The translations under genes were made by a program, and so were the position numbers. Shown piece by piece: positions 1,354 through 28,823 of a stretch of 29,160 nucleotides of DNA. The notes below the pieces were generated by a model. The model saw only the letters and a program-made list of their open reading frames with translations. It was not told the DNA's origin and ran no database searches. Source of the stretch: a virus; the IMG/VR virus record IMGVR_UViG_3300010354_000430, positions 1 to 29,160 of that record. The stretch is one strand, 5' to 3'. The number at the start of each line of letters is the position of its first letter. The stretch's first letter is position 1.

Positions 1354-2376
1354 TTATCTATTTTTCTTATTAACTTGCTGTAAATACAAGTCTTGTTTTA
1401 CGTCTGGTAATTCTTGATATAGCAATGTCCCTTTAGTATTAATAGCATCTACTCTACTTTGTATTAGATTTTTTGCTTCTGGACTATTGTATTCATAAAT
1501 ATTTTTAGCATGTTCTGCATCATGTGCCATTATTAATACTTCATTAGAATTTTTAATTTTACTATTACTTGTAGCACTATTTCTCTTACTTTCTAGTTTT
1601 TGTTTTTCAGCATTCTTATGTTGCACTATCATCCATCCATCAAACATATCGTCATCATTAAAAACAGAATCATCTGGACATTCTAATGATTCATGAGCAT
1701 TATCATATATTTGTGACCATATGATTAAATTTTTTTGATTAGCGGTCAATTCTTGATCTGATTTATTAAGAAATAATGATAGAGTAATATTTTTATGTAT
1801 AATCCACAAAGATCGCCACGGTTCATTGCGGGCTAATTCTCTTATGTTAGTGTCTGATAAAAATGATTGTTCCCATACAGAAATAATCCTATGTAATGGA
1901 GTTTTATCAAAATAATATTTTTCAGATCCATTATAAGTAGTTTGTGAAATTAACCAATTTAATCGTGCTAGTGATGATATTCCTTCGCATGTATTACTAT
2001 ATTCAGAATTTTTTAATACTAAATGATTATTTAATAGTTGCTCACTATGTCTGATGCGAGGTCTGATACTGTTACATTTTTTTGGATTATCTCTAGATTT
2101 AAATATTTCTACTTTTAATTCCTCTATTTCTTTCTTGTGTTTTTCAACCATGTTTTCATTATATTTGGTCCAAATTAAATTTTCTTTCATCCATACTATC
2201 ATATCATCTTCTGTCATGATCCCGTCTTGAACACACTGATCATACGTTTCATGATAGATAGCATATGAATCTGATATTTGATCTATTGTTGGTGGAATGA
2301 TATAAATATCATTTTCTATCTTAACTTTACCAGATCGTATCCTATAAATAAAAGATTCTCGCTCATGATGATTCAT
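1354..2376 (-). CDS. putative tail assembly chaperone, paralogue A
   Basis: A 340-residue protein whose N-terminal half (34-155) is paralogous to the gene at 145-999, including C48 plus DGIMTEDD, a Lys/Glu-rich predicted coiled segment (about 72-95), and the NWLISQTTY motif. The C-terminal half is different: Trp-rich in the middle (EPWRSLW, about 185-195), then acidic and helical, without the acidic Gly repeats of paralogue B. It lies immediately downstream of the tail tube gene, the usual place for the G-type chaperone. The function is inferred from position and paralogy only. The start codon lies in the loop of a strong hairpin (2352-2399), which implies control of its expression. A short GAGG upstream of the ATG is partly buried in the stem. 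Confidence 0.55.
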   Translation of the reverse strand: MNHHERESFIYRIRSGKVKIENDIYIIPPTIDQISDSYAIYHETYDQCVQDGIMTEDDMIVWMKENLIWTKYNENMVEKHKKEIEELKVEIFKSRDNPKKCNSIRPRIRHSEQLLNNHLVLKNSEYSNTCEGISSLARLNWLISQTTYNGSEKYYFDKTPLHRIISVWEQSFLSDTNIRELARNEPWRSLWIIHKNITLSLFLNKSDQELTANQKNLIIWSQIYDNAHESLECPDDSVFNDDDMFDGWMIVQHKNAEKQKLESKRNSATSNSKIKNSNEVLIMAHDAEHAKNIYEYNSPEAKNLIQSRVDAINTKGTLLYQELPDVKQDLYLQQVNKKNR

Positions 2377-2399
2377 ACAAACCTCATGGCGAGAATCTT
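2352..2399 (-). promoter_or_regulatory. hairpin enclosing the start codon; candidate attenuator or translational operator
   Basis: On the minus strand the arm AAGATTCTCGC (2399-2389) pairs perfectly with GCGAGAATCTT (2362-2352). An inner arm CATGA (2388-2384) pairs with TCATG (2368-2364), leaving one bulged A at 2363. This gives 16 base pairs around a 15-base loop (2383-2369) that contains the ATG (2376-2374) of the chaperone-like gene. The 3' arm is followed by TTTTATTTAT. The structure therefore resembles both an intrinsic terminator with an imperfect U-tract and a ribosome-site hairpin. It is placed between a tube protein needed in many copies and assembly factors needed in few. The base pairing is read directly; the role is inferred. 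Confidence 0.6.
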
Positions 2400-2440
2400 A
2401 ATGTTTCCTTGTTGGTCCTAAAAAATTAACTTAATAAGAA

Positions 2441-3427
2441 TCAAGTAATATAATTACTATCTGTAACGGTGAAGAAGTTATATGTAGTAAAGCTTCTTGA
2501 AATTGTAGCATTACCTCCAGTAGCATCTCCACCCGTCTGATTAATAGCTGATAAGTAACAGCCACTACCAAGATTAACTGTAACATTACCAGCAGTTACA
2601 GTAATGGATTGATCTCTAACTGGTAAGAATACTGTAGAATCATCAAATTCTGCATCATCATCATTATTTTCTGTTAATAGAGACTGAATTTCAGCAGTGA
2701 CTTCGATAGGATAGGTAGCAATCTTGGCATATGGAATACGCTGACCAAATTCAAAAACGTCTTCACGACCAAGATTAAGAGTTAATGTTACGCTTTGAGC
2801 CTTTGCAGAACCAGGAGCAGTAACGGTCACATCTTGTCTACGAACCATTCTACCGCTTCCAGTAGCATAATTAGCAGTATCTGGTGGGCCATCATCTGCT
2901 GGATCGGAACCGTTTGATACGCTAGCTGGAACACCAGCCATGCTTGCAGTGCCTAATTTTTTGATATTACCAACTAGAGTAATACTTTCTGTGCAATTAC
3001 CTTCTACTGGAAAAGTATATGTGACATTATTAACATACATGCCTGTGCATAAGATATTAAATAAGCCACCACCATTTGCAGCATTACCAGTATCAGCATA
3101 AACCACAAAATGTGCATCTGCTCTAAACTTACTAGCAGTAGCTAAAGCTTGTCCGCTTGAAATATAACTATATGGAGTAACATATCCATCTAAAGCTTTT
3201 TCAATAGTAATTTCTACCTGTGGAATATTTAGTACTGAATCATATATTTCAAGTTGGCCTAATTCGAATACGTTTTCAACGTCAAAAGTAGAATTAATAC
3301 CTACTGATTGAATGCCGTGCATGTACTTTACTGGTCTGGTAATGGTGGGATAATTACCAGTGGCGTCTGGCTCTCTAGCACCAATACCAACAGCTTGACA
3401 GGCATAAAATGTTCTTAAATTTGCCAT
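2441..3427 (-). CDS. major tail tube protein
   Basis: A 328-residue protein, soluble and beta-rich. The segment at about 44-82 (FDVENVFELGQLEIYD, then VEITIEKALDGY) followed by SGQ and later VEGNCTESITLVG resembles tail tube proteins of uncultured siphoviruses, in which a tube monomer assembles around the tape measure. A second related half follows: LNLGREDVFEFGQRIPYAKIATYPIEVTAEI (split here at about 218-248) mirrors the first FELGQ...IPQVEITIEKAL segment, so the protein may contain two copies of a tube fold or a tube fold plus a C-terminal domain. It has a strong TAGGAGACAAT site before the ATG. GC content is visibly higher than in its neighbours, as for other abundant virion proteins here. 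The gene order (tube, chaperones, tape measure) is the best support. Confidence 0.65.
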   Translation of the reverse strand: MANLRTFYACQAVGIGAREPDATGNYPTITRPVKYMHGIQSVGINSTFDVENVFELGQLEIYDSVLNIPQVEITIEKALDGYVTPYSYISSGQALATASKFRADAHFVVYADTGNAANGGGLFNILCTGMYVNNVTYTFPVEGNCTESITLVGNIKKLGTASMAGVPASVSNGSDPADDGPPDTANYATGSGRMVRRQDVTVTAPGSAKAQSVTLTLNLGREDVFEFGQRIPYAKIATYPIEVTAEIQSLLTENNDDDAEFDDSTVFLPVRDQSITVTAGNVTVNLGSGCYLSAINQTGGDATGGNATISRSFTTYNFFTVTDSNYIT

Positions 3428-8929: not shown

Positions 8930-8945
8930 TTAACTAAAAGTTATA
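8930..8945. repeat. 16-base direct repeat, copy 1 (other copy 9871-9886)
   Basis: The 16 bases TTAACTAAAAGTTATA at 8930-8945 recur exactly at 9871-9886. In both cases the repeat is the 3' end of a glycine-rich gene, including the stop codon and the codons for the final residues ITFS. The spacing of 941 bases approximates one gene length, consistent with tandem duplication followed by divergence of the interior. Confidence 0.7.
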
Positions 8946-9859
8946 TTATCCGTTCCTGCCGTGATGGTCAAAATCGTATCGTTGCCACTTGTGGCTGACG
9001 TATAGGTAAGGCCTGCACCAACCGTCGCTGTGATCGTGCTGGAAAACCGCAGGACAACGACGCCGGAGCCGCCGTTACCCGGCACCTGCGTCGCGCCGTT
9101 ATAGCCGCCGCCGCCGCCAGAACCTGTGTTTGCAGTTCCAGCGGTAGCCGCTACTGTATTTGTTGCACCACGACCACCAATTCCGCTACCGCCTGCGGCA
9201 CCAGAACCGCTCCCTGCTCCACCGCCACCAGCCGCATACGTTGTCGAGCTAACTGGCGTTGATGAAGCTTTTCCTGTCCCTGCCGCGCCACCCGCGGTGG
9301 TGTTGTTTGCCCCGCCGGCACTGCCCGCGCCGCCGCCACCGCCGCCGGCGTTATAAAATCCGCTAAGTGCCCCCGCTCCGCCGTTGTTGCCTAACACAGA
9401 ACTGAGCGTTTTGCCGGAACTGTTAGCCGCGATGGCATACGAGCCGCCTCCTCCGCCACTGCCGCCATTTCCGGGGTATCTTAAAAACGTTGACGGAGCC
9501 CCGCCGCCTGAACCGCCTCCAATCGCCACCAATGGACCAAACTGAGAATAACCGCCGTGGTTTACTGCGCTAGAAGATATCGCTCCGCCCGCGCCTACAA
9601 CCACGGTATATGTGGTATTCAGCACAATTGTGATTTGCTGATCAATAAACGCGCCAGCGCCGCCGCCACCGCCAGCTAAATCTACCGAGCCTCCGGTGGT
9701 GCCGCCATATCCGCCGGGGCCGCCTCCACCAATGACAAGCGCCGTTACGACCAAAGCTCCGTCACGAAGTTCCCACGCATATCCGGTCCATGTGTACAGC
9801 CTGTCGTTCTGACGCGACAGTTGACCAACCGTTGGGCTATTTGGAAAACTAAATGGCAT
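8930..9859 (-). CDS. glycine-rich appendage/adhesin-like protein 1
   Basis: A 309-residue protein. Residues 1-34 (FPNSPTVGQLSRQNDRLYTW, TGYAWEL) are a common N-terminal module of phage fibre proteins; a similar LYQWTG segment ends the gene at 11112-12494. Residues 40-280 are a Gly-rich domain with GGGG runs and VVVGAGG strands, of the kind found in glycine-rich phage and bacterial surface proteins; in T-even-type gp38 adhesins, poly-Gly helices form the receptor-binding tip, so a receptor-binding role is plausible but not shown. The C-terminus (LTYTSATSGNDTILTITAGT) is shared with the gene at 9871. The DNA is strikingly GC-rich (47 of 60 G+C in 9061-9120) and uses GGC for many glycines, unlike the rest of the window. 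It was probably acquired recently. Confidence 0.65.
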   Translation of the reverse strand: MPFSFPNSPTVGQLSRQNDRLYTWTGYAWELRDGALVVTALVIGGGGPGGYGGTTGGSVDLAGGGGGAGAFIDQQITIVLNTTYTVVVGAGGAISSSAVNHGGYSQFGPLVAIGGGSGGGAPSTFLRYPGNGGSGGGGGSYAIAANSSGKTLSSVLGNNGGAGALSGFYNAGGGGGGAGSAGGANNTTAGGAAGTGKASSTPVSSTTYAAGGGGAGSGSGAAGGSGIGGRGATNTVAATAGTANTGSGGGGGYNGATQVPGNGGSGVVVLRFSSTITATVGAGLTYTSATSGNDTILTITAGTDNITFS

Positions 9860-25246: not shown

Positions 25247-25885
25247 TCACTTACTAAATACATTATCGGTTAACCACTGGGCCACACTGGCTCTAGTGGC
25301 ATTAAGTTCGTCTTCATCTCCAGAAGCGTCAACAAGAGTTGCCTCTGTTGACTTAACGCCATCAAAAAGCTCCTCTGTTACTTCTTCAGCAACAATACTA
25401 GCTTTAGGATTTTTGCTTTCATTTTCCTCGTCTTTTTTAACATTCTCTTTAACTTCTACTTTTTGCTCCATCTTTGCCATCTTCTTTTTGTAGACAGCAA
25501 CGATAGCTTCAAAAGCTGAATCTTCTAGATTATCATAAAGAGCGAGTGATTGTTCGGCTTCGGCATCTTCAAAGCCAGCCTGAATAAGACTAGCTTTTCT
25601 CATTGCCATTTTTTCTTTCTTTTTCATCATATGCATTTCGGCTTTTACATCGTTAAGTTCTGCCTCTTTAGCAGCTAGAGCATCCTGTAGATTCTGGATG
25701 GTCTGATCTTTTTCTGCAACTGCTTCTGTGAGAGTTTTATTGGTCTGCTCAAAATTTGATAGAGATTGCTGTAATTCTGTTACATTAACCTCTACATTTT
25801 CTGTAGCTTGTGTTTCGCTACTGACCTGTTCGGTAGCTACAGCAACAGCTTCGACCTGTTGCTCTACGGTATTTGTATCTGACAT
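25247..25885 (-). CDS. internal in-frame start: free scaffold protein
   Basis: An ATG at 25883-25885 lies in frame with the protease gene (residue 265, MSDTNTVEQQ). AAGGAG (25899-25894) sits eight bases upstream, one of the best ribosome sites in the window. The product would be 212 residues: acidic, with a coiled-coil segment (NLQDALAAKEAEL), a Lys/Met-rich part (MHMMKKKEKMAMRKA) and an acidic C-terminus. Scaffolds are needed in many more copies than protease, and nested protease/scaffold genes are known (lambda C/Nu3). Internal initiation is predicted from sequence only. Confidence 0.65.
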   Translation of the reverse strand: MSDTNTVEQQVEAVAVATEQVSSETQATENVEVNVTELQQSLSNFEQTNKTLTEAVAEKDQTIQNLQDALAAKEAELNDVKAEMHMMKKKEKMAMRKASLIQAGFEDAEAEQSLALYDNLEDSAFEAIVAVYKKKMAKMEQKVEVKENVKKDEENESKNPKASIVAEEVTEELFDGVKSTEATLVDASGDEDELNATRASVAQWLTDNVFSK

Positions 25886-26677
25886 ATCTTTTTCTCCTTG
25901 ATTAAGATTACTTGAACTTTGTTCATTTATAGAGAAAGCTTTACTAGCATCAAGAATAACACTTCTTGGATTTGCTGGTTTAGAAACCAAACCTTTGCCA
26001 GAAAAAGAAATGTCTCTTAATGATCTGCCAATTTTATAGTCTTCATACTGTCCAGTGCCACCATATGCCCTTAAATGCTTAGTTAAAAATGAAGAATCAT
26101 CATTTCTTGCTATTACTTTGTGACCACCATCTGGACTAATAAGAGCATAGTCAAAACCGGCAAATAAACATTCCATAGAAACGAACCATTTGCCTTGCTC
26201 GATTTCTGCTATAATTTTATTCATTCTTTCTCTATTTTCAGGATTAGTCCAACTATTGTATAGTACAGCTTCGGTTATGATATCAAATTCAGATGGAATA
26301 TCAGTAGTATCATTAGCTACTGCATTACCATTTCTATCAATAACATAGCTACCAGTGATATGACCTATAATATCGTTTTCATTATGCATGAAATTAAACT
26401 GTTTATCTTCTGGTGTTGATCTAGCAGCCCATGTGGCAGCAGTAGAAAATACATCGTCATTTTTATTCCACCCAGTAGACACTAAAACAGATTTAATATA
26501 GTATAGATCAAGTTGTTTTGGATTAGCTGTAGATGCTTTAATTTTTTGAACAACATCATGACTTAACTTACAATTGTCAGTAGTAGATAAAACTGCTGGA
26601 GAGCAAAAGGCAATAGAAGCCTGTGACTGCACAGAGGCAGCTAGACCGTCTAAGATTTCATATTTAAATACTTTCAT
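25247..26677 (-). CDS. prohead protease with C-terminal scaffold domain
   Basis: A 476-residue protein. Residues about 50-250 form a protease domain: YIKSVLVSTGWNKNDDVFS, FNFMHNENDIIGHITGSYV (H98 is the probable catalytic His), WFVSMECLFAGFDY (S167 the probable nucleophile) and RSLRDISFSGKGLVSKPANP, the conserved block near the domain end. Residues 265-476 are acidic and coiled-coil (EKDQTIQNLQDALAAKEAEL), typical of scaffold. An internal ATG (residue 265) with a strong ribosome site would yield a 212-residue scaffold alone, as in the lambda C/Nu3 arrangement. The protease would cleave scaffold and head proteins at maturation. Assignment of H98 and S167 is by pattern. The start follows GAGAGG with good spacing. 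Confidence 0.75.
   Translation of the reverse strand: MKVFKYEILDGLAASVQSQASIAFCSPAVLSTTDNCKLSHDVVQKIKASTANPKQLDLYYIKSVLVSTGWNKNDDVFSTAATWAARSTPEDKQFNFMHNENDIIGHITGSYVIDRNGNAVANDTTDIPSEFDIITEAVLYNSWTNPENRERMNKIIAEIEQGKWFVSMECLFAGFDYALISPDGGHKVIARNDDSSFLTKHLRAYGGTGQYEDYKIGRSLRDISFSGKGLVSKPANPRSVILDASKAFSINEQSSSNLNQGEKDMSDTNTVEQQVEAVAVATEQVSSETQATENVEVNVTELQQSLSNFEQTNKTLTEAVAEKDQTIQNLQDALAAKEAELNDVKAEMHMMKKKEKMAMRKASLIQAGFEDAEAEQSLALYDNLEDSAFEAIVAVYKKKMAKMEQKVEVKENVKKDEENESKNPKASIVAEEVTEELFDGVKSTEATLVDASGDEDELNATRASVAQWLTDNVFSK
25894..25899 (-). promoter_or_regulatory. internal ribosome binding site for nested scaffold
   Basis: AAGGAG on the minus strand, eight bases before the in-frame ATG at 25885. 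It encodes Gln-Gly-Glu in the long protein, so it could be coincidence, but the match and spacing are as good as at the true gene starts here. Confidence 0.65.
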
Positions 26678-26697: not shown

Positions 26698-26734
26698 GCT
26701 AATACACAAAAAGCTAAAAACTATGTGTATTAGC
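26698..26734 (-). promoter_or_regulatory. hairpin overlapping the portal stop codon
   Basis: Perfect 11-bp inverted repeat: GCTAATACACA (26734-26724, minus strand) and TGTGTATTAGC (26708-26698), separated by 15 bases. The 5' arm contains the portal TAA stop (26732-26730). No U-tract follows on the minus strand, so it is not a standard terminator; an RNA processing or stability element between portal and protease messages is plausible. The protease ribosome site starts a few bases downstream. Confidence 0.5.
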
Positions 26735-28823
26735 TAATTTTATATTCAACAAAACATCCAACGATATGCTTACGATAAGAATCAATATTCATATTATTTA
26801 TCGATATATCTTTAGATTGTAATATATTTTTAAACTCTTGTGGAGTCTTTAAATTCTTAGAAAGAATATTATGTATATTTTCAGCAGTAGCAGTTTCTAG
26901 TATTTGTAAATTAGAAAATACATCTAGTTTTAATTGTTCAAGATTATCAAACTCGGCTTTAGTAAGCTGTCTAAGATTTTTCTTATTATTTAGATCTAAA
27001 TATGCTTTAGTTAATATATCTGAGGTGGTTTCCCAAGAAGACTCGGCCCATATTATTAATTCAGCAACACCTGGAGTAGACTTAGGATTAGCCACCCTTT
27101 GCTTTCTAACATTTGTATCTTGGCTTAACGGTGGTCTACCATTAGGTTTAGATTCGGGTTGTTTGGGCTGTGCAGTGGGAGAGGACGGCAAACCAAATCC
27201 GCCGCCCTTTGGAGCTAATAGCATATCTTTTGGAACGCTAGTTTTTATACCAACATCTTGTGGTAATATTTTGCCAGTTTGTAAAGCGATTTTTTCCAAG
27301 TCTTCTTTGATTTGTGGACGATGATATGGTCCAGCTTTTTGTGGGTTAGATTCATCTTCACGATCAGCAACCTCTCGTTTGAGACGAATTTTCTCAATTT
27401 GTGGAATTTCCTTAAATCTCTGTAAAAGCGTCTCTTGACTAATAATATCACGATCAGCAAGTTGTATAAGTAGATTTTTCTCTGCCGCTTCATCTGACAA
27501 TGACATTTGATCAAACTGTATGTAAGCTTTATATCTAAAACCCATAGCCTGTCTTACAAGCTCAACTTCTTTTTCCCAAAATCTTACTAATTGATCTCGT
27601 CCGTATTGTAGTCTTTCAACAAGAGTTTTAAGTGAGATGAAGTTATTGGTAAATCCACCACCATTAGTAGCCATACCTGTTAGTGTTGGAGGAACGCCAA
27701 GACCAGCATAGATACTATTTAAAACAGCAGTATATTTTTCTGATCCTAGAAATTTATAAACCTCGCTGCTAGATTCTTTGAATGATAGTTCTGGACCCCA
27801 TACTAATTCCATTGTGCCACCACCAACATTACTAGCTAAAATATCTCTTAATTTATTAATAGCTGCTTTATTTGGTAAAATCTTATGTTCTAGATTGCCG
27901 AGTGTCCATAGTCTAATGTTAGATATAGCTCCATCTAATGCTGATAAATCGGCTAGTCTCATTTTTTCTAGCATAATAACATCATCTAATATTGCATAAA
28001 TCATTGGATTGGCCCATAATAGCCAATCATCTTTCTTATAATGGAAAACGCTCACACGTTCTGGATCTAGTGGTACATCGCGTTCTCCACGCATGAGGCT
28101 TTGTTTAATTGCTACTGGTAAACTTTCAATAAAATCGTTGGGAAGATCTCCAGCTACAAATTTATCAAAAAAAGAATTAGATGTTACAGTATAATTCTGT
28201 ATGCCCATAAATAGAGATAGATTTCCATTTACAGATTTAACCGTAAGAGGATTGAAGAAATTGTATCTCCAGGGAATTTCGTTTGGTTTAGCGGATGGTA
28301 TATCAACACGAATATCGCTAGCTAAAGACTTCATATATTGAATAAGTTGGCTATTCATTTTAGCATAGCTACGATAAGTAATAACATTACCACATCGATA
28401 TAAAGTATTTAAAAATCTTTCGCTTATTTCTTTACCATTCACATTCTTAAACCACTGTTGATAGAATTTTTCAACACTTTTATTAGGATGAATAATCTCT
28501 ATACCTTGACTACCAAAATCACCCATAAGGTCAATAATATTACGAATAATACCAACTTTATCATATGCATCCATGCACATTTTGATAATGCTACGCTGCT
28601 GATTAGGGACCGCCTCATTTGGACGGAAAGCGTAATAATCTCTAGGGGTAAATCCTGGCTTAACAGATCTAGATGGTTCTATGTCTAAAAAGTGACGATA
28701 AATATTACCTTGAGATTTTGGCAAGCCAGTATAGTTATCAATATTGTCACTAAGTCTGTCCATAGCACTAGACTTACTATCAAAATTATCGTCTTGCCAC
28801 GTTATAATATTTTCGTCATTCAT
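26730..28823 (-). CDS. portal protein
   Basis: A 697-residue protein directly downstream of the terminase end. RNIIDLMGDFGSQGIEIIHP (about 95-114), then FYQQWFKNVNGKEISERFLN and TLYRCGNVITYRSYAKMN follow the wing/clip order of phage portals; later FHYKKDDWLLWANPMIYAIL and a helical GLGVPPTLTGMATNGGGF segment (about 370-390) also fit. Typical portals are about 450-550 residues, so the C-terminal extension is long: a Pro/Gln-rich, Gly-rich linker (about 545-590) is followed by about 110 helical residues with no recognised domain. Base composition is the AT-rich background. The gene begins 40 bases after the terminase stop, with a GAGAAAAC element before the ATG. Confidence 0.7.
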   Translation of the reverse strand: MNDENIITWQDDNFDSKSSAMDRLSDNIDNYTGLPKSQGNIYRHFLDIEPSRSVKPGFTPRDYYAFRPNEAVPNQQRSIIKMCMDAYDKVGIIRNIIDLMGDFGSQGIEIIHPNKSVEKFYQQWFKNVNGKEISERFLNTLYRCGNVITYRSYAKMNSQLIQYMKSLASDIRVDIPSAKPNEIPWRYNFFNPLTVKSVNGNLSLFMGIQNYTVTSNSFFDKFVAGDLPNDFIESLPVAIKQSLMRGERDVPLDPERVSVFHYKKDDWLLWANPMIYAILDDVIMLEKMRLADLSALDGAISNIRLWTLGNLEHKILPNKAAINKLRDILASNVGGGTMELVWGPELSFKESSSEVYKFLGSEKYTAVLNSIYAGLGVPPTLTGMATNGGGFTNNFISLKTLVERLQYGRDQLVRFWEKEVELVRQAMGFRYKAYIQFDQMSLSDEAAEKNLLIQLADRDIISQETLLQRFKEIPQIEKIRLKREVADREDESNPQKAGPYHRPQIKEDLEKIALQTGKILPQDVGIKTSVPKDMLLAPKGGGFGLPSSPTAQPKQPESKPNGRPPLSQDTNVRKQRVANPKSTPGVAELIIWAESSWETTSDILTKAYLDLNNKKNLRQLTKAEFDNLEQLKLDVFSNLQILETATAENIHNILSKNLKTPQEFKNILQSKDISINNMNIDSYRKHIVGCFVEYKIS

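Follow-up and report, generated by a model that had tools for sequence, protein, structure and literature searches.

In phage T4, genes I-TevI and e are relieved from repression by transcripts with start points that leave out the inhibitory RNA structure. Hairpins that hide ribosome-binding sites have been described in mRNAs of T4-type phages for soc, e, I-TevI, and mobE (PMC2988022). A structured start codon can also be opened by a ribosome arriving from an upstream gene, and this RNA-unfolding translational coupling is exemplified by the coat and lysis genes of phage MS2 and genes VII and IX of phage f1 (PMC12548453). The iraD gene of Escherichia coli is preceded by a short leader open reading frame, the stop codon of which overlaps the gene start, and its Shine–Dalgarno sequence is sequestered by RNA structure (PMC5574718). 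In phage lambda, the dose of the tail assembly chaperones is fixed by the gpG/gpGT programmed frameshift at the junction of the tube and tape-measure genes (PMC5009743). The start-codon hairpin described here is a conserved RNA element that probably acts in cis as a gate on translation of the gene next to the tail tube gene on its downstream side, and a ribosome loaded upstream would open it.

The window, which is the whole stretch of DNA that was analyzed, is the 29,160-base virus record IMGVR_UViG_3300010354_000430, with the structural genes on the minus strand. The gene at positions 2441–3427 (minus strand) encodes a major tail tube protein by fold, its product matching the tail tube of P74-26 (Z of 18.6 over 275 residues) and also pb6 of T5. 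Directly downstream of it is the tail gene with the hairpin at its start (1354–2376, minus strand), which encodes a 340-residue protein of putative function. The AlphaFold model of this protein is confident and helical (mean pLDDT of 88.7). No convincing match to it was found in Pfam, PHROGs, or by fold, and the best VIA-align matches are helical and cover about 57 residues only. The gene has a paralogue at 145–999 (24% identity, E of 6e-11) on the other side of a small gene (1001–1342), and each of the three has its own start in the open reading frame list. The earlier note called the 1354–2376 product chaperone-like; the position of the gene and the presence of the paralogue agree with this, and a putative tail assembly chaperone would suit that position, but a family or fold match is absent. 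The claimed setting after the tail tube and before assembly genes is supported, with the tube identified by fold upstream and, in the relative L040, the tail gene followed by two more genes and then by a frame of at least 1246 residues, presumably the tape measure. A tube homologue is positioned directly upstream of the gene in nearly all relatives examined. The start codon at 2374–2376 (minus strand), taken from the open reading frame list, is correct: the distance from the methionine to the SG motif is the same 16 residues in homologues.

The hairpin spans positions 2352–2399 of the minus strand, which reads from 2399 to 2352 AAGATTCTCGC CATGA GGTTTGTATGAATCA TCATG A GCGAGAATCTT, and is supported by sequence, fold, and covariance model. 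The 5′ arm (2389–2399) and the 3′ arm (2352–2362) form a perfect outer stem of 11 bp, which is continued by a bulged A (2363), an inner stem of 5 bp, and a 15-base loop with the ATG at 2376. RNAfold predicts five additional pairs within the loop (GGUUU/GAAUC), so that only a four-base tip is open and contains the AU of the start codon. The predicted inner stems P2 (2384–2388/2364–2368) and P3 (2379–2383/2370–2374), which together cover 2364–2388 (minus strand), close over the Shine–Dalgarno sequence and the ATG. The gene's own Shine–Dalgarno-like sequence, GAGG at 2382–2385 (minus strand), is paired in the hairpin, and the unpaired probability of this region in the window is 0.01. A stretch of 71 nt folds at −25.4 kcal/mol (z of −5.5, 0 of 200 shuffles as good), and the fold of the region of about 120 nt, which had been proposed as a check, is also stable (−30.0 kcal/mol for 121 nt, z of −3.8). 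However, about 0.55 perfect inverted repeats of 11 bp with loops of up to 40 would be expected by chance in a window of the same composition. The window alone is therefore no proof of the hairpin, and its conservation in relatives was examined instead. Because relatives keep the pairing, the hairpin is accepted as real, at the coordinates and with the ATG in the 15-base loop as given in the earlier note. A second perfect inverted repeat of 11 bp (GCTAATACACA/TGTGTATTAGC) lies at 26698–26734, at the junction of genes 26730–28823 and 25247–26677, which is another boundary in the same array. The frame 8930–9859 contains a GC-rich hairpin patch (9140–9510) in a window of otherwise 35% GC.

The first relatives, found with whole-protein patterns (L003–L036, about 30% identical), are without the hairpin, and it was absent from the 21 of them that were searched with the covariance model. 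Closer relatives were reached via the tail tube protein and an alignment scan. Among these, L037, which is located on the same contig as L040 and was found via the upstream gene, has a tube protein of 50% identity and a hairpin with two compensatory pairs, and its coding-side codons still read HERE. A profile scan yielded 43 loci, all with the hairpin, which together with the window represent 39 distinct sites. The pattern used in the first alignment scan contained HERE, and a second scan with only the C-terminal part of the protein was therefore used as a bias check. It recovered relatives without HERE in which the hairpin is still present. In total, 64 distinct sites from the window, both scans, and matches to contigs of metagenome-assembled genomes (MAGs) have the start codon in the hairpin loop, and 25 of them lie beyond the scan with the HERE pattern, most coming from the C-terminal scan. 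At least sixty uncultivated phages thus carry the same hairpin at the gene after the tail tube. Searches with tblastn using either protein found no relatives among cultured phages, and in bacterial genomes only five MAG contigs matched, which are probably binned phage.

Across 57 sites, the three-helix structure contains 90.3% standard pairs, compared with 35–53% in slid controls, and 11 of its 16 pairs are changed on both sides (shuffled mean of 6.9, 0 of 500 as high). Compensatory changes in related phages, which the earlier note had suggested looking for, are thus present. Pairs are formed in 96.9% of cells in the outer stem, 96.5% in P2, and 70.5% in P3, the register of which varies among the sites. 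RNAalifold recovered the outer two helices unaided. Codon-level changes that preserve the pairing occur in L163 (GCUCUCGC/GCGAGAGC), L156 (AAUCCCUC/GAGGGAUU), L144 (AUUCCCGC/GCGGGAAU), and the window itself (AUUCUCGC/GCGAGAAU). In proteins that read YERE, HERD, LREF, KREL, or MREL, the stem is kept and the non-coding arm is changed to match. Arginine codon 6, which is part of the 3′ arm, is CGG in 60 of the 64 sites, and CGG accounts for 2.5% of arginine codons in the same loci. Judged from this pattern of substitutions, the hairpin is under selection as a structure. The opposite explanation, a by-product of a conserved protein sequence with chance pairing, could draw on the invariance of residues 4–7 (HERE) in an alignment of 39 proteins, which was itself gathered partly by the HERE pattern. 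However, a rare synonymous codon is fixed, codon changes are matched by covariation in the non-coding 5′ arm, and L137, L153, and L163 have other residues with the stem kept. The pair counts already contradict this explanation, and its probability is negligible.

Covariance model R1 matches the window at 2349–2402 (66 bits, E of 6.5e-15). In 20 of 20 whole records (71–174 kb), the model identifies exactly one strong site, always at the tail gene, and the weak matches on the opposite strand correspond to the palindrome itself. A pattern based on DNA only (AAGGA, arm, ATG, arm) was run over 2.9 million viral contigs and gave 62 matches, of which 56 begin a member of the protein family, another belongs to a truncated member (L193), and the remaining five are apparently chance matches. 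When the residues coded by the hairpin were left out of the tree, a single clade of 68 rows (100/97 support) contained all 64 with the hairpin; its members without the hairpin are L165, L166, L133, and L147. L147 is near-identical to L151 (at about 2700) with exactly the hairpin missing, AACTCCCG..GAACGGGAG having become AACGGGAG; the loss reflects either deletion between the inverted repeats or an artefact of amplification or assembly.

The coat protein of phage MS2 binds a hairpin as a translational repressor, and the product of the tail gene or the tube protein could bind the hairpin in a similar manner. Conservation of the outer stem sequence, ACUCCCGY/RCGGGAGU, exceeds what pairing by itself requires, as would suit a protein-bound operator. 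In contrast, the stem sequence is changed wholesale in the window, L156, and L163 with the hairpin kept, there is a single strong site per genome, and an RNA-binding fold was not seen in the 1354–2376 product; we consider such an operator decidedly unlikely. A multi-site operator is rejected because of the single strong site per genome.

Upstream of the hairpin is the sequence AAGGA (2406–2410, minus strand, in the window), a proposed ribosome-loading site, which is present in 63 of the 64 sites and reduced to AGGA in the remaining one. A leader ATG follows 4–11 nt after AAGGA in 53 of the 64 sites, compared with 12.2 expected from mononucleotide shuffles that are uncorrected for kinship. The leader frame runs over the 5′ arm, and its stop lies within −21 to +14 relative to the real start, with +14 as the commonest position. 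A leader of the uORF type, defined as a short upstream frame with its own Shine–Dalgarno sequence and a stop at or overlapping the gene start, is present in these 53 of the 64 sites. A conserved leader peptide is rejected, as all three leader frames occur among the sites, which points to ribosome passage rather than the peptide as the conserved feature. The gene's own Shine–Dalgarno sequence (AGG or GGA 4–12 nt before the ATG) is present in 52 of the 64 sites. Eleven of the 12 sites that lack it have a leader frame, when GTG is counted as a start, and L054 is missing both. The ten sites without a leader start, the window and nine others, have no well-placed start as a replacement. In the window AAGGA is present but no leader ATG lies behind it, and a leader of the uORF type is absent there. 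The window's ATG closest to AAGGA begins the mini frame ATG AGG TTT GTA TGA (2373–2387, minus strand), the stop of which overlaps the real start. An ATG in the P2 strand occurs in 10 of 10 sites without a leader ATG vs 24 of the 54 others (Fisher p of 0.001, uncorrected for kinship), and in these ten its mini frame extends across the real start. The hairpin might alternatively be a processing site for RNase III or RNase E, or a 3′ stabilizer of the tube mRNA, for which a long duplex would be suitably placed, with a gene in high demand on one side and genes presumably needed less on the other. However, processing does not account for a loop that holds the start codon, for the pairing of the Shine–Dalgarno sequence, or for the conserved AAGGA and leader frame, and it is very improbable.

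The computed energy of the start regions has a median of −26.8 kcal/mol (61 sites, −32 to −20), compared with −6.2 for 221 other starts with Shine–Dalgarno sequences in the same loci, the lowest of which is −19.9. All 61 start regions are thus more stable than all 221 control starts. With the 5′ arm removed, the energy is −7.6, which is in the ordinary range, and this drop in stability is the effect expected from a ribosome moving over the arm, in agreement with the RNA-unfolding model of coupling (PMC12548453) and with iraD (PMC5574718). When only the 5′ arm is blocked in the model, P2 and P3 still hold the Shine–Dalgarno sequence (median unpaired probability of 0.32; 0.01 in the window), and a ribosome would therefore need to pass further in.

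We propose that the mRNA folds the gene's own Shine–Dalgarno sequence and start codon into the long hairpin, so that a free ribosome would start there rarely and the hairpin would act as a repressor. Ribosomes would instead load at AAGGA, which precedes the hairpin and is more open, and in the majority of these phages would go on to translate the leader over the 5′ arm, stopping at the real start or close to it. Translation of the leader, or a ribosome standing at AAGGA, may open the hairpin; the former would strip the outer stem and give access to the gene start by coupling or re-initiation. The gene would thereby be expressed at a low and constant level alongside the abundant tube protein, and the purpose of the element may be dosage. 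In the window, ribosomes may stand by at AAGGA, or the leader may be replaced by the mini frame 2373–2387. As the window is without a leader ATG, one of these two routes must apply there, which is the weakest point of the gating reading. Of the roles offered by the earlier note (partial terminator, translational operator, or processing site), translational control is the best supported, because the Shine–Dalgarno sequence and start codon are in a hairpin kept by compensatory change and a conserved ribosome-loading site is positioned upstream; termination is the weaker one.

The terminator reading concerns the U-rich stretch at 2344–2353 (minus strand), which comprises the stem end and the bases just after it and is coding. 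A T-rich tract had been reported after the 3′ arm, and it is present; however, the run TTTTATTTAT takes in the last two T of the arm, so that only TTATTTAT follows the stem. As a partial intrinsic terminator, the stem and the U-rich tract would end part of the transcripts coming from the tube gene and so reduce expression downstream, alone or together with gating. The conserved GC-rich stem has 8 bp and encloses about 25–30 nt with further helices. In the F8 clade, it is followed directly by a U-tract (UUUUUU; UUUUUUAUUU), with an A-rich sequence before the 5′ arm, whereas the Y8 clade has a broken tract (GAGUAUUUUGU). The codon TTT is used for 78 of the 84 phenylalanines at positions 8–9, compared with 73.5% TTT in the loci. 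However, the stretch encodes E-F or Y-F, and the residues E-F-L are also found in the hairpin-less L133, L165, and L181, so coding constraint can explain the U-tract. Since hairpin-less relatives encode the U-rich tail as well, partial termination would be only secondary. A terminator would need neither the start codon in the loop nor AAGGA with a leader frame, and a terminator scan, limited to loops of 8, found no excess and did not pick up the site 2352–2399. Ordinary terminator-like hairpins are present in the same gap of the distant relatives L004, L008, and L181, which are without the start hairpin. This is in favor of termination at this place and suggests that some lowering of output at the junction may be general in the family. 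On balance, partial termination by the start hairpin is unlikely. L012 and L034 resemble these three relatives in having terminator-like hairpins with T-runs in the gap between the tube and the next gene and no start hairpin. In L006, L022, and L030, a hairpin CCAGYCTAGTA..TACTAGRTTGG is located at the end of the tube gene, about 50–60 nt before the start codon, with C/T and G/A differences that are apparently compensatory.

A second conserved RNA motif, GCGAUAGC ... GC(A/G)AGU inside a covarying outer stem, is found at L161:2571–2639, L065:4893–4962, L150:2568–2636, and about 35 other loci, and is absent from the window. It is positioned 56–157 nt (mostly 80–100) before the start codon and also occurs in distant relatives without the start hairpin. 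With a structure given by hand, 83 cells of the motif are changed on both sides vs 36 in shuffled alignments; RNAalifold predicted almost nothing from the motif alignment, and the motif has no match in Rfam. The start hairpin with its leader and, in many members, the second motif could form a two-part regulatory RNA that sets the ratio of tube to assembly protein in response to a tail protein or to the translational state. This is a speculative and rather unlikely scenario; if true, a two-part RNA would do the job that lambda does by frameshifting.

The principle of such control is known, and we did not find the element, its gene, or the leader arrangement described; the papers covered by the literature searches contain no description of the hairpin element. 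Rfam (release 15, 4227 models, gathering score) has no match in the window or its relatives, and the window region gives only sub-threshold chance matches. The hairpin is thus a covariation-supported RNA element without an Rfam entry that is linked to a single gene at the tail-assembly junction in a group of uncultivated phages with records of up to 174 kb. At the start of this tail gene, the RNA constraint overrides codon choice and apparently also residue choice. The covariance model can be used to flag phages of the group and to mark the true start of the gene. The proposed gating provides a testable alternative to programmed frameshifting for the dosing of tail assembly proteins.

Like the frameshift of lambda gpG/gpGT, the hairpin would be a dosing device at the junction of the tube and tape measure, but it would act at initiation on separate genes and without a frameshift, and the chaperone identity of the product is putative. 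As in T4-type phages, a hairpin in a phage mRNA hides a ribosome-binding site. In contrast to those hairpins, it is preceded by a ribosome-loading site, and a promoter producing transcripts that lose the structure is not evident here: none of the stronger sigma-70-like sites listed lies at the hairpin on the minus strand. The locus shares with iraD the short leader frame with a stop over the gene start and the Shine–Dalgarno sequence sequestered by structure. It differs in that no CsrA-type repressor is known for it, the start codon itself is enclosed by the hairpin, and the gene is a phage tail gene. The coupling in MS2 and f1 is similar in that a ribosome on an overlapping or adjacent upstream frame opens a structured start. 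Unlike in MS2 and f1, the upstream frame is here a dedicated short leader, the peptide and frame of which are not conserved, and the conserved part is the RNA.
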